This document shows, piece after piece, positions 4,300 through 10,210 of a stretch of DNA of 64,000 nucleotides; the stretch's first letter is position 1; each line of letters begins with the position of its first letter. The DNA lies in contig NZ_JABRWJ010000005.1 in assembly GCF_013266755.1 (NCBI RefSeq), positions 620,001 through 684,000 of the forward strand, written 5' to 3'. Below the pieces are notes generated by a model. That model saw only the letters and a list, made by a program, of their open reading frames with translations, searched no databases and had not been told where the DNA came from. The position numbers were made by a program, and so were the translations under genes. The DNA comes from Pseudaquabacterium terrae (lineage in GTDB: Bacteria > Pseudomonadota > Gammaproteobacteria > Burkholderiales > Burkholderiaceae_C).

Positions 4300-5421
4300 A
4301 TGGACCGCGACCGCATCCTGCTGACCCCCGGCCCGCTGACGACGACCTTGCGCACCAAGCTCGCAATGCTCAAGGACTGGGGCTCGTGGGACAGCGACTT
4401 CAACGCCGTGACCGCGCAGCTGCGCCAGCGGCTGCTGGACATCGTGAACGGCCAGGCCACGCACACCGTCGTGCCGCTACAGGGCAGCGGCACCTTCAGC
4501 GTCGAGGCGGCGGTGGCCACAATCGTGCCGCGCGATGGCCACGTGCTGGTGCTCGACAACGGCGCCTACTGCAAACGCGCAGCCAAGCTGACGCAGCTGA
4601 TGGGACGCCGCCTGACGGTGCTGCCCTTCGGCGAACAAGAGCCGGTGTCGCCGGCCGCGCTGGACGACAAGCTGCAGGCCGATACCTCGATCACGCACGT
4701 GATCCTGATCCACTGCGAAACCGGCACCGGCGTGCTGAACCCGCTGGCCGAGGTGGCGGCGGTCTGCGAACACCGCGGCAAGGGCCTGATCGTCGACGCG
4801 ATGTCGAGCTTCGGCGCGCTGCCGATCGATGCGCGCGCGATCAGATTCGATGCACTGATCGCCGCCAGCGGCAAATGCCTCGAAGGCGTGCCCGGCATGG
4901 GCTTCGTGATCCTGCGCAAGGCCGTGCTCGAGGGCTGCGCGGGCAACAGCCAGAGCCTGGCGATGGACCTGTTCGATCAGCACCAGTACATGGAGAAGAC
5001 CGGCCAGTGGCGCTTCACGCCGCCGACGCACGTGGTCGTCGCGCTGGCTGAAAGCGTGCAGCAGTTCATCGAAGAAGGAGGCCAGCCGGCGCGGCTGGCG
5101 CGCTACACCGACAACTGCCGCACGCTCATCGAGGGCATGCGCGGGCTCGGCTTCGAACCGTACCTCGAGCCCGGCGTGCAGGCGCCGATCATCGTCACCT
5201 TCCACGCGCCGGCCCATCCGGCCTACGATTTCAAGCGCTTCTACGCTGCCACGAAAGCGCGCGGCTTCGTGCTCTATCCTGGCAAGCTGACGCAGATCGA
5301 GACCTTCCGCGTCGGCTGCATCGGCGCGATCGGCAGGCACGAGATCCAGCAGGCTGTCAACGCGGTGGCCGATGCGCTGAAGGAATTGGGCATCAGCCAC
5401 CACGACCACTCGACGAACTGA
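4300..5421 (+). CDS. phnW: 2-aminoethylphosphonate:pyruvate transaminase
   Basis: A 373-residue PLP enzyme (fold type I, class V) that converts AEP and pyruvate to phosphonoacetaldehyde and alanine. Family hallmarks are the N-terminal [10 protein letters not shown] and [12 protein letters not shown], the [14 protein letters not shown] cofactor loop, [11 protein letters not shown] with PLP-binding D166, and the Schiff-base lysine K192 in [11 protein letters not shown]. Length matches the family. The partner that would cleave the C-P bond of its product (PhnX, or PhnY plus PhnA) is not clearly present nearby, which makes the downstream enzymes interesting. Confidence 0.9.
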
Positions 5422-5443
5422 AAACCACAGGAGATTGAAGCGC

Positions 5444-8030: not shown

Positions 8031-8834
8031 ATGGACCCGAACCGCCCGCTGCTGATCGGCGTCTCGGCCCGCATCTATTACCCGGGCACGCCGGGCATCC
8101 TGGTCAGCGGCGTCTGGACCAAGACGCTGCACTACCTGGAGCAGTCGGTCGCACACTGGCTGCTGGCCGGCGGCGCGATCCCCGTGATGGTGCCGGCGGT
8201 CGACCGCGACAGCCTCGTCAAGCGCTCGGACATCGACCTGCCGCACTACGCGCAGGCGCTCGATGGCCTGGTGCTGCAAGGCGGCAACGACGTCGCGCCC
8301 GAGTCCTACGGCGAAACCGCGCTGGCACCTGATTGGAGCGGCGACCGTGTGCGCGACCGCTACGAGATGGCACTGATCCAGGCCTTCGTCGATGCCGGCA
8401 AGCCGGTGTTCGGCATCTGCCGCGGGCTGCAGCTGCTGAACGTCAACTTCGGCGGCACGCTGCTGCAGGACATCGCCACGCAACGGCCGCAATCCCAATC
8501 GCACCGCGACGGCTCGAAGTACGAACGCCACTTCCACAGCGTCGAATTCGTCCCGGGCTCGGTGCTGGCAGCCCTCTATCCCGACCGACGGGCGACGATC
8601 AACAGCATCCACCACCAGGGCATCAAGGACCTGGCGCCCGGCTTCACGGTCGAGGCGCACTGCCCGGAAGACGGCATGATCGAGGCGATCCGCCGCGAAG
8701 GCCCGGGTTATGTCGCCGGCGTGCAATGGCACCCCGAATTCCACGATCCCGACGACCCGGCGCATTTCGACGACGGGCCGTTGCTGCGCCACTTTCTCGA
8801 CGCGGCACGCACCGCACGAGGAGCATCACGATGA
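8031..8834 (+). CDS. Gamma-glutamyl-gamma-aminobutyrate hydrolase-like class I amidotransferase (PuuD family)
   Basis: A 267-residue peptidase C26/GATase1 protein. The nucleophile is C130 in FGICRGLQ, and H234 and E236 in VQWHPEF complete the triad. LQGGNDVAPESYG near the front is typical of PuuD. Family members hydrolyse gamma-glutamyl amides to release glutamate and an amino acid. Paired with the ligase upstream, it would close a gamma-glutamylation cycle. Its stop overlaps the aldehyde dehydrogenase start (ATGA), so the two are probably translationally coupled. Function is well supported; the amide is unknown. Confidence 0.8.
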   Translation: MDPNRPLLIGVSARIYYPGTPGILVSGVWTKTLHYLEQSVAHWLLAGGAIPVMVPAVDRDSLVKRSDIDLPHYAQALDGLVLQGGNDVAPESYGETALAPDWSGDRVRDRYEMALIQAFVDAGKPVFGICRGLQLLNVNFGGTLLQDIATQRPQSQSHRDGSKYERHFHSVEFVPGSVLAALYPDRRATINSIHHQGIKDLAPGFTVEAHCPEDGMIEAIRREGPGYVAGVQWHPEFHDPDDPAHFDDGPLLRHFLDAARTARGASR

Positions 8835-10210
8835 GCAAGATCCTTCACATCGCCAACCCGGCGACCGGCCTGCCGATCGCTGAACTTCCGTGCGACGACG
8901 CCGCGTCGGTCGCCGCCAAGGCCGCCGCCGCGCTCGCCGCGCAACCGGCCTGGGCCCGCGTGCCGATCGCCGACAAGTTGGGCATGATCCAGCGCTTTCG
9001 CGCCGGCATCGTCGCCGAGCTCGAGGCGCTGGCATTGACCTTGACGCAGGAGGTCGGCAAGCCGATCGCGCAATCTCGCAACGAGCTGAACGGCCTGCTG
9101 CCGCGGCTCGACTACTTCCTCGAGCAGGCCGAGGGCGCGGTGCGTGACGAGCACGTCTTCGACGGCGGCGGCATGCACGAGCAGATCTCGCACGTGCCGC
9201 TCGGCGTCATCGCCAACATCTCGGCCTGGAACTATCCGTACTTCGTCGGCTGCAACGTGCTGGTGCCGGCGCTCCTGACCGGCAACACCGTGCTGTACAA
9301 GCCGAGCGAATACGCGACGCTGACCGGCCGCCACATCACGCGCCTGCTGCATGCCGCCGGTGTGCCGGCCGACGTGCTGCAGTGCCTGGTCGGCGCCGGC
9401 GAGGTCGGCGCGGCATTGCTCGAGCAGCGCATCGACGGCGTCTTCTTCACCGGCAGCCACGCCACCGGGCAGCGCATCGCCGCCGCGGTGGCCGGCCGGA
9501 TGATCAAGCTGCAGCTCGAGCTCGGCGGCAAGGACCCGAGCTATGTGCGCGCCGATGCCGATCCGAAAACCGCCGCCGAGAGCCTGGCCGACGGCGCGAT
9601 GTACAACGCCGGCCAGAGCTGCTGCTCGGTCGAGCGCATCTACGTGCACGAGGCCATTCACGACGCCTTCGTCGAGCAGTTCCTCGCCACCGTCGCCCGC
9701 TTCAAGGCGGGCGACCCGCTGGACGACGCCACCTACATCGGCGCGATCACCCGCGCGCCGCAGCTCGACGTGCTCGACGCCCAGGTCGCCGATGCGAAAA
9801 CCAAGGGCGCGACGCTGCGCTGCGGCGGCCACCGGCTGCCCGGCCCTGGCCAGCACTACGCACCGACCGTGTTCACGGACGTGAACCACACGATGGCGCT
9901 GATGCGTGAAGAGAGCTTCGGCCCGCTGATCGGCATCCAGAAGGTCAGCGATGACGACGAGGCGCTGCGGCTGATGAACGACACGCGCTACGGCCTGACG
10001 GCCGGCATCTACACGCGCGACGAAACGGCGGCACGCACGCTGCTCGCGCAGGTCAATGCCGGCAGCGTCTACTGGAATTGCTGCGACCGTGTCAGCCCGC
10101 GGCTGCCGTGGTCCGGCGTCGGCGATTCGGGCGTCGGGCTGACCTTGTCGAGCTACGGCATCCAGGCCTTCACACGGCCGAAAGCCTGGCATTTGCGCAG
10201 CCCCGGTTGA
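8831..10210 (+). CDS. NAD(P)-dependent aldehyde dehydrogenase
   Basis: A 459-residue ALDH-superfamily enzyme with all catalytic parts: N in SAWNYPY, K in VLYKPSE, the GSHATG loop (208-213), general base E230 in LELGGKDP and nucleophile C264 in GQSCCSVER. GAGGAG precedes the ATG. Two roles fit the context: oxidising phosphonoacetaldehyde to phosphonoacetate (PhnY-like), or oxidising a gamma-glutamyl amino aldehyde to the acid (PuuC-like) between the Fe-ADH and the hydrolase. Sequence alone does not decide. Its stop and the next ATG share one base. Confidence 0.8.
   Translation: MSKILHIANPATGLPIAELPCDDAASVAAKAAAALAAQPAWARVPIADKLGMIQRFRAGIVAELEALALTLTQEVGKPIAQSRNELNGLLPRLDYFLEQAEGAVRDEHVFDGGGMHEQISHVPLGVIANISAWNYPYFVGCNVLVPALLTGNTVLYKPSEYATLTGRHITRLLHAAGVPADVLQCLVGAGEVGAALLEQRIDGVFFTGSHATGQRIAAAVAGRMIKLQLELGGKDPSYVRADADPKTAAESLADGAMYNAGQSCCSVERIYVHEAIHDAFVEQFLATVARFKAGDPLDDATYIGAITRAPQLDVLDAQVADAKTKGATLRCGGHRLPGPGQHYAPTVFTDVNHTMALMREESFGPLIGIQKVSDDDEALRLMNDTRYGLTAGIYTRDETAARTLLAQVNAGSVYWNCCDRVSPRLPWSGVGDSGVGLTLSSYGIQAFTRPKAWHLRSPG

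Follow-up and report, generated by a model that had tools for sequence, protein, structure and literature searches.

Why a complete gene set for gamma-glutamylation should be lodged in an operon for the use of 2-aminoethylphosphonate (AEP) is the question raised by a stretch of 64,000 nucleotides from Pseudaquabacterium terrae (contig NZ_JABRWJ010000005.1, positions 620,001 to 684,000; hereafter the window, to which plain coordinates refer). Near its start, phnW, which encodes AEP:pyruvate transaminase (4300..5421, + strand; NF010006, 577.5 bits, cut-off 296), is followed by genes for a glutamine-synthetase-like ligase, two dehydrogenases, a hydrolase and an HAD phosphatase. AEP and phosphoethanolamine are head groups of phosphonolipids and phospholipids, and the explanation favoured here, with about even confidence, is that one operon with one uptake system serves both. 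The original prediction, made from the letters of the window, had proposed either a second route for AEP-like amines or such a co-use of phosphonolipid and phospholipid head groups; the results described below support the latter and speak against the former.

Searches of the window with NCBIfam and Pfam profiles bore out the enzyme families that had been read behind phnW, all on the + strand, namely a ligase with a PF00120 catalytic domain (5444..6805; 305.4 bits), an iron-type alcohol dehydrogenase (Fe-ADH; 6893..8026; PF00465 and PF25137), a PuuD-type C26 amidohydrolase (8031..8834; PF07722, 193.7 bits) and an aldehyde dehydrogenase (ALDH; 8831..10210; PF00171, 425.6 bits). These are putatively a gamma-glutamylethanolamide synthetase, a gamma-glutamylethanolamide dehydrogenase, a gamma-glutamylglycine hydrolase and a gamma-glutamylaminoacetaldehyde dehydrogenase, respectively. 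Spacing from phnW through ALDH was 22, 87, 4 and -4 bases, so that the description of these ends as mostly overlapping or nearly touching was correct for the intervals of 22, 4 and -4 bases and not for the 87 bases before Fe-ADH. Since none of the four enzymes reached the cut-off of any NCBIfam family listed for it, their names are given at the level of family only. Thus, the hydrolase scored 99 against 266 for the PuuD/gamma-glutamyl-gamma-aminobutyrate hydrolase family NF008471 while matching Pfam Peptidase_C26, and the ligase scored 204.3 and 204.2 bits against the glutamine synthetase I/III families TIGR00653 (cut-off 429.15) and TIGR03105 (cut-off 469.6). Assignment of Fe-ADH to the phosphonate-linked family TIGR03405 (Phn_Fe-ADH, PsrA) was rejected at 156.9 bits (cut-off 423.7), as was that of ALDH to a second PhnY at 217.5 bits (cut-off 635.65).

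At the position of the E327-flap Glu of glutamine synthetase the ligase carried Trp319, which was invariant in 22 aligned rows, that of the window included. The flap Glu of the ammonium site is thus missing, as it is in ligases of gamma-glutamyl pathways from ethanolamine to glycine; in excerpts of PMC6529630, the same position is occupied by Phe in GlnA4 and by Trp in PauA7. Unlike PauA7, the ligase retained an Asp (Asp67) at the position aligned with D50. Structures 5dm3, which we take to be a C. salexigens protein, and 11zs were both distant from the one member that was compared from each of the two ligase clades described below.

The constancy of the set was evident from a wider contig scan for ligase loci, from which the best 80 of at least 582 confirmed stretches were taken and to which all counts out of 80 refer; genes outside the window were called with a simple script. 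Fe-ADH, C26 and ALDH genes lay behind the ligase in 45 of the 80 loci and did so in that order in all 45, so that the cassette is more than a chance assembly. Among the 52 loci that extended more than 6 kb beyond the ligase, Fe-ADH was present in 48, ALDH in 43, C26 in 39 and none of the three in 4. The best-matching named loci were from Burkholderiales, several of them labelled Rubrivivax. Strains with a name that carry the joined operon are Ramlibacter sp. WS9 (L104), Polaromonas sp. OV174 (L099) and Caenimonas sp. SL110 (L123). Most loci were metagenome bins and some record titles are possibly wrong; the titles of L131 (a Bordetella parapertussis metagenome-assembled genome), L097 and L134 clash with their Burkholderiales-type ligases, which suggests misbinned or misnamed contigs.

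Ethanolamine was the best-supported substrate of the set, because phnW-free relatives adjoin genes for ethanolamine permease or ammonia-lyase, because lineages switch between these settings and because no alignment column separates them; described pathways and these neighbours together make it probable, with considerable confidence, that ethanolamine is what the set acts on. The order survey comprised a sample of 399 genomes of the host's order, in which the ligase was counted at E <= 1e-110 and phnW and the TIGR00908 permease each at E <= 1e-90. The ligase was present in 38 of the 399 genomes, 22 of which, including the host, formed clade A (at least 65% identity) and 16 clade B (45-53%). In the phnW-free clade A sets of genus g22 (G104, G212, G272 and G357; L039-L042), a TIGR00908 ethanolamine permease gene lay directly upstream, the permeases scoring 624.5-628.9 bits (cut-off 381.75), and in those of genus g39 (G118, G157 and G342; L044-L046) EutB adjoined the ligase, being in L044 a fused EutBC that was accompanied by EutA and an FGGY kinase. 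Permeases that were best matched by TIGR00908 elsewhere scored just below the cut-off (L055, 375.8; L102, 362.6) or above it (L151, 426.1), and 4 of the 16 clade B genomes (G032, G065, G075 and G223) had a TIGR00908 match no more than 5 kb away from the ligase. These neighbouring genes support the series of ligation, alcohol oxidation, aldehyde oxidation and hydrolysis, from ethanolamine to glycine, that had been put forward as the likely chemistry.

The two kinds of partner gene replaced each other from locus to locus. Thus, phnW was directly upstream on the same strand in 28 of the 80 loci and a permease within 3.5 kb in 12, whereas both together were found in none. On a quick tree of clade A ligases, in which 32 of 99 inner branches were open, the 47 labelled rows required a minimum of 6 switches between phnW and permease, and 13 or more changes between phnW and not-phnW were required when unknown rows were excluded. 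Columns in which phnW-linked and permease- or eut-linked sequences were each at least 90% constant but for different residues were absent from all four cassette enzymes, the rows compared being 33 and 17 for the ligase, 28 and 17 for Fe-ADH, 20 and 14 for C26 and 24 and 15 for ALDH. With interleaved lineages, such columns would be expected to be missing unless specificity had changed convergently, so that their absence argues against a change of this kind, although it does not prove an identical substrate.

Association of the ligase with phnW in other genomes, on which the original prediction had staked its reading, was also evident in the order survey. Of the 22 clade A genomes, 13 contained phnW, compared with 30 of the 377 others (Fisher p = 1e-8), and the permease, which was found in 42 of the 399 genomes, was present in a single one (the host) of these 13 compared with 8 of the 9 clade A genomes without phnW (p = 2.4e-4); since descent and transfer connect the loci, these p values do not represent independent tests. 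The ninth phnW-free genome, G393, was 64% complete and carried EutB, so that phnW, permease or EutB was found in each of the 22. EutB itself was present in 4 of the 22 and not in the host. No general mutual exclusion of phnW and permease was seen, the two occurring together in 7 of 43 phnW genomes.

A gene that followed the joining of phnW and ligase was that of the HAD-IB phosphatase (10210..10875, + strand; TIGR01490, 117.3 bits, cut-off 98.3), a putative phosphoethanolamine phosphatase that the original prediction had not included. Its start shares one base with the ALDH stop, and it was treated as part of the cassette. In a strict count, which was limited to loci with ALDH and more than 900 bases beyond it and to HAD genes on the same strand with more than 45% identity, HAD was found in 16 of 17 phnW-linked ligase loci and in 0 of 26 without phnW. 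All 15 of the 17 that showed PhnS2, PhnT2 or PhnU2 had HAD; the other two were L109, with HAD and its upstream region cut off, and L091, with neither transporter nor HAD. When the ALDH filter was removed, the corresponding counts were 19 of 28 for phnW-linked loci, 0 of 43 for phnW-free loci with the upstream region visible and 4 of 9 for loci with the upstream region cut off. Among joined loci of the order survey, HAD was present in five of six (the window, L037, L043, L051 and L056, the last being the same place as L145) and missing from L038. The gene was not found in 29 phnW clusters without a ligase nearby (L158-L186, taken from 31 such places of the order after exclusion of G117 and G186, which were weakest), and HAD was therefore rejected as a generic component of AEP clusters.

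Amino-alcohol phosphates, of which histidinol phosphate is one, have their smallest member in phosphoethanolamine, a chemical argument of our own. The nearest named family of the HAD protein was the histidinol-phosphatase family NF052360, for which its score of 241.4 bits fell below the cut-off of 280 while that of a second copy in the host, 281.3 bits, exceeded it. A role as the host's only histidinol phosphatase is thus less likely; yet among 24 genomes searched, in which G000, G323, G385, G211 and G241 carried the phn-operon copy plus another, G038 had the operon copy alone. In a tree of HAD proteins, copies from joined loci fell into a main clade (support 83/89, not starred) and a small second one (L056/L145 with L213), both apart from genomic copies, and L131 stood alone. 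The 24 main copies were split from 16 genomic ones by 13 columns, some of which shifted to bulkier residues (Tyr62, Trp74) in the presumed cap. An AlphaFold2 model of the protein (mean predicted local distance difference test score, or pLDDT, 97.3) was nearest to 3fvv, a structure of unknown function, and then to phosphoserine phosphatases. Genomic context points, a shade short of even confidence, to a phosphoethanolamine phosphatase supplied by import of its substrate, an estimate that takes the exceptions given below into account.

Upstream of phnW lie genes for an AEP-type ATP-binding cassette (ABC) transporter, namely phnS2 for the binding protein (472..1509, + strand; TIGR03261, 493 bits, cut-off 392.75), phnT2 for the ATPase (1511..2584, + strand; TIGR03265, 491.2 bits, cut-off 457.7) and phnU2 for the permease (2581..4290, + strand; TIGR03262, 787.4 bits, cut-off 593.25). 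The nearest solved relatives of PhnS2 were, in order, AfuA (4r72), 8x1a (iron-compound-binding by name) and P5PA (6wce); according to excerpts of the respective papers, AfuA binds sugar phosphates (PMC4546632) and P5PA binds pyridoxal phosphate (PMC8427247). In a hand alignment based on the comparison with these solved relatives, Thr63, Thr173 and Ser211 of PhnS2 coincided with the phosphate-site Thr and Ser residues that the two papers name for AfuA and P5PA, and these three together with Arg233 and Asp256 were invariant in 47 PhnS2 proteins. Ligase-linked PhnS2 formed one clade, accounted for by one change, and differed from unlinked PhnS2 at 13 columns. A predicted model of PhnS2 had a mean pLDDT of 57.0 and was not used. 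Excerpts of PMC8316502 describe import of AEP by AepSTU of Pseudomonas putida, and the terms phosphoethanolamine and ethanolamine had no match in that paper.

On the other side of phnS2, and running divergently from phnS2T2U2-phnW, are phnR, phnA and phnY. Of these, only the 5' part of phnR, a GntR-type phosphonate regulator gene, is within the window (1..217, - strand, with the start codon at 217 as chosen by us), the remainder together with phnA and phnY lying just to the left, outside the view of the original prediction. The full phnR gene (L006:14459-15331) scored 329.3 bits against TIGR03338 phnR_burk (cut-off 271.5), PhnA 601.2 bits against TIGR02335 (cut-off 407.55) and PhnY 869.9 bits against TIGR03250 (cut-off 635.65), so that PhnW, PhnY and PhnA each exceeded a curated NCBIfam cut-off. 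Because all three are encoded, the conversion of AEP to acetate and phosphate is complete without the ligase set.

Taken together, these genes may be arranged in the following scheme. AEP would enter by PhnS2T2U2 and yield acetate and phosphate through the action of PhnW, PhnY and PhnA, while phosphoethanolamine, its oxygen-bridged analogue, would be taken up in parallel by the same transporter. Within the cell, HAD would strip phosphate from phosphoethanolamine, and the ligase would couple the resulting ethanolamine to the gamma-carboxyl of glutamate at the expense of ATP. The glutamylated alcohol would then be oxidised by Fe-ADH to the aldehyde and by ALDH to the acid, gamma-glutamylglycine, which the C26 hydrolase would cleave to glutamate and glycine. 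Feeding of the set with phosphoethanolamine would explain the place of the set in an AEP operon, the observed restriction of HAD beside the ligase to loci with a linked phnW or a truncated upstream side and the lack of a permease in all but one of the 13 phnW-bearing clade A genomes. Joined phnS2T2U2-phnW-ligase-HAD operons would then be islands for two head groups, both imported whole, and HAD a phosphoethanolamine phosphatase not described before that belongs to the histidinol-phosphatase group, a tentative reading to which slightly less than even confidence is given.

Several results weigh against this scheme, beginning with the fact that HAD is not universal in genomes with phnW and ligase. 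It was missing from 9 of the 28 phnW-linked loci; in five of these nine the contig ends first (L090, L095, L105, L117 and L139) and in L083 only 2.3 kb is visible past the ligase, whereas L079, L091 and L092 show about 10 kb past the ligase and no HAD. Because most loci are metagenome bins, absence of HAD or of another gene may reflect no more than a contig end. PhnS2T2U2 was present in L079 and not in L091 or L092, and the joined locus L038 had neither PhnS2T2U2 nor HAD. Of seven phnW clusters that were apart from or opposed to the ligase of their own genome (L187-L193), a single one, L188, carried HAD, which directly follows phnW there at a distance of some 16 kb from the ligase. Ligase, phnW and PhnS2T2U2 all occur in G317 and G396, two of the genomes concerned, yet neither has a permease or, at E <= 1e-15, an HAD of this family; with both absent, their sets must be fed in another way and are left unexplained by the proposed feeding step. 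Both carry a peptide-type binding protein within the set. In the permease locus L141 (the same place as L055/L201, G016), HAD was found on the opposite strand, in a copy that grouped with genomic ones in the tree. The C26 gene is missing from some joined operons; of six genomes searched in which it was not beside the ligase or a contig end interrupted the set, five had a homologue with 51-67% identity elsewhere and the sixth, G038, just a 39% homologue. Among the 12 permease loci, L108 (by NCBIfam) and L115 (by similarity) hold another type of permease, L115 encoding EutB (666.9 bits) in addition. Since linked PhnS2 forms a single clade, the joined loci cannot be treated as independent, and the p values exaggerate the association. 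Finally, the host, with a genome of 8.04 Mb in 56 contigs, carries its own ethanolamine permease on a separate contig (C55:418140), among open frames whose single Pfam match, DUF3616, was uninformative, and import of phosphoethanolamine is therefore not necessary for its set.

This last point favours an alternative in which the set degrades free ethanolamine from a separate permease, from diffusion or from other lipid breakdown, its seat in the AEP operon reflects only a shared food source and HAD has another function. Such an account is possible although rather unlikely. It agrees with the single PhnS2 clade, given that the joined operons may stem from few events, with the joining of phnW and ligase in L038, L091 and L092 without PhnS2T2U2 and HAD, and with the gene content of G317 and G396, but against it stand the lack of a permease in nearly all clade A genomes with phnW and the manner in which HAD tracks the phnW-linked state, being absent both from phnW clusters without a ligase and, on the same strand, from phnW-free ligase loci. 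Action of the ligase on some other small amine or amino alcohol, for example alaninol or isopropanolamine in the manner of the Ipu pathway, is improbable. Fe-ADH and ALDH would suit any primary amino alcohol and the sub-cut-off scores of the four enzymes are compatible with such a substrate, whereas the association of relatives with an ethanolamine permease and with EutB or EutBC speaks against it, as does the lack from the operon of any recognisable gene that would turn an amine into an amino alcohol.

Use of the set for an amine that bears a phosphonate, for instance 1-hydroxy-AEP or N-methyl-AEP, as a second AEP-like route would be consistent with the position of the set behind AEP uptake genes and with the 12 clade A genomes that have phnW and no ethanolamine permease. 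This version of the original prediction is nevertheless very improbable. PhnY and PhnA are encoded next door, the phnW-free versions of the set adjoin ethanolamine genes with no column to separate the settings, and the chemistry of an Fe-ADH/ALDH pair fits, in our judgement, a primary alcohol rather than a 1-hydroxyphosphonate. Moreover, 1-hydroxy-AEP would already be handled by PbfA, the (R)-1-hydroxy-2-AEP ammonia-lyase, a gene for which was named by NCBIfam in L078 (7263-8711; NF049939, 636.8 bits, cut-off 525) and had relatives in L076, L077, L080, L119 and L145, that is, in 6 of the 80 ligase loci in all. Genes for AEP, for hydroxy-AEP and for the ligase set can thus share one locus. Least credible of all is an ordinary glutamine synthetase with unrelated neighbours, an account that draws on the PF00120 domain of the ligase and was rejected in view of the low family scores and of Trp at the flap Glu position; four other PF00120 genes in the host genome and the constant order of the cassette argue in the same direction.

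Additional genes were noted in and around the ligase loci. Between ligase and Fe-ADH, a GNAT acetyltransferase gene was found in seven loci (L087:3132-3641, by Pfam, and L094, L100, L104, L111, L118 and L121), an M20-family peptidase-like gene in two (L104:11491-12762 and L123:11375-12670) and a gene for a peptide/nickel-type ABC binding protein (SBP_bac_5, by Pfam on L053:7738-9315) in some loci that have no ethanolamine permease nearby (L053, L054, L089, L126 and L130), the last being perhaps another uptake route. In L139, an FAD-dependent oxidoreductase gene (5504-6736; PF01266 DAO) between phnW and ligase possibly encodes an enzyme of the PbfB-D kind acting on N-methyl-AEP. A NUDIX protein (DUF4743 and NUDIX, by Pfam on the L056 copy) is encoded near joined and split loci (L145 at about 9000-9900, L091, L096, L132 and L133). 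Downstream of HAD in the window, an AstE-like gene (10954-11919) was rejected as a cassette member, no homologue being detected in the loci searched (tblastn, E <= 1e-10). To the left of the window, beyond phnR, phnA and phnY, are genes for an Na/Pi symporter and then a membrane protein, the sole listed family of which was phn_DUF6 (230.8 bits, cut-off 288.15). A 13-base G+C palindrome occurs at 6843-6855, 10915-10927 and 40596-40608, the first two sites being in intergenic gaps of the operon region; five matches in the window at up to 2 mismatches were not above chance, 44 shuffles reaching this number.

If the favoured explanation is true, carriers of the joined operon, which among these loci are largely Burkholderiales, would use a single transporter to take up both head groups whole and would obtain phosphate as well as amine nitrogen from C-P and C-O-P head groups alike inside the cell. 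A transporter family annotated for AEP would gain a new substrate and a subgroup of HAD proteins a function, and surveys of AEP use that rely on phnW or phnS2 would acquire a second reading.

The logic of ligase, oxidation and hydrolase is shared with the Puu and Ipu pathways, which depend on an amine oxidase (PuuABCD) and on a monooxygenase (Ipu), respectively; no gene for either kind of enzyme is present in the operon described here. Contrary to the statement in the original prediction that no such pathway had been described, gamma-glutamyl routes from ethanolamine to glycine are documented in excerpts of PMC6529630 and PMC10132767. The route is thus already known; what was not found in print, among the matches listed by searches of open-licence literature and in term searches of phosphonate papers, is only its fusion with AEP uptake and PhnW. 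Among the listed papers, one on a Streptomyces genome (PMC11857848) contained all three terms of its search. In the route of Streptomyces coelicolor GlnA4, as excerpted from PMC6529630, a glutamine-synthetase-like ligase without the E327-flap Glu and the proposed formation and hydrolysis of gamma-glutamylglycine correspond to the present set, whereas the alcohol step is given to a predicted short-chain dehydrogenase instead of an Fe-ADH; the word phosphonate was absent from that paper by term count.

Another close parallel is ethanolamine gamma-glutamylation in Phaeobacter sp. MED193, in which, according to excerpts of PMC10132767, ETAGA, GETADH, GAADDH and GGAH provide the same four activities in series and growth on the phosphoethanolamine head group induces the pathway proteins; two further bacteria, Chromohalobacter salexigens and Agrobacterium tumefaciens, are cited there alongside. 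Gene order differs, being ligase, aldehyde dehydrogenase and alcohol dehydrogenase by locus tag in the excerpted description of MED193 as opposed to ligase, Fe-ADH, C26, ALDH and HAD in the window. Supply differs as well. In the marine case the same excerpts place cleavage of the head group outside the cell, with a contribution of PhoX and evidence of further Pho-independent routes, and import of free ethanolamine by the tripartite ATP-independent periplasmic (TRAP) transporter EtoVWX (PMC10132767), whereas the set described here is joined to an AEP-type ABC transporter and phnW. In its make-up the joined operon resembles hydrolytic PhnWYA operons for AEP with ancillary Pbf enzymes, which in excerpts of PMC8154272, PMC10590968 and PMC12366243 likewise combine phnW, phnY, phnA and a putative transporter with ancillary genes that widen the range of substrates; the term glutamine synthetase was unmatched in these three papers. 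Unlike the Pbf ancillaries as described in those excerpts, the ancillary module of the present operon would not yield phosphonoacetaldehyde.

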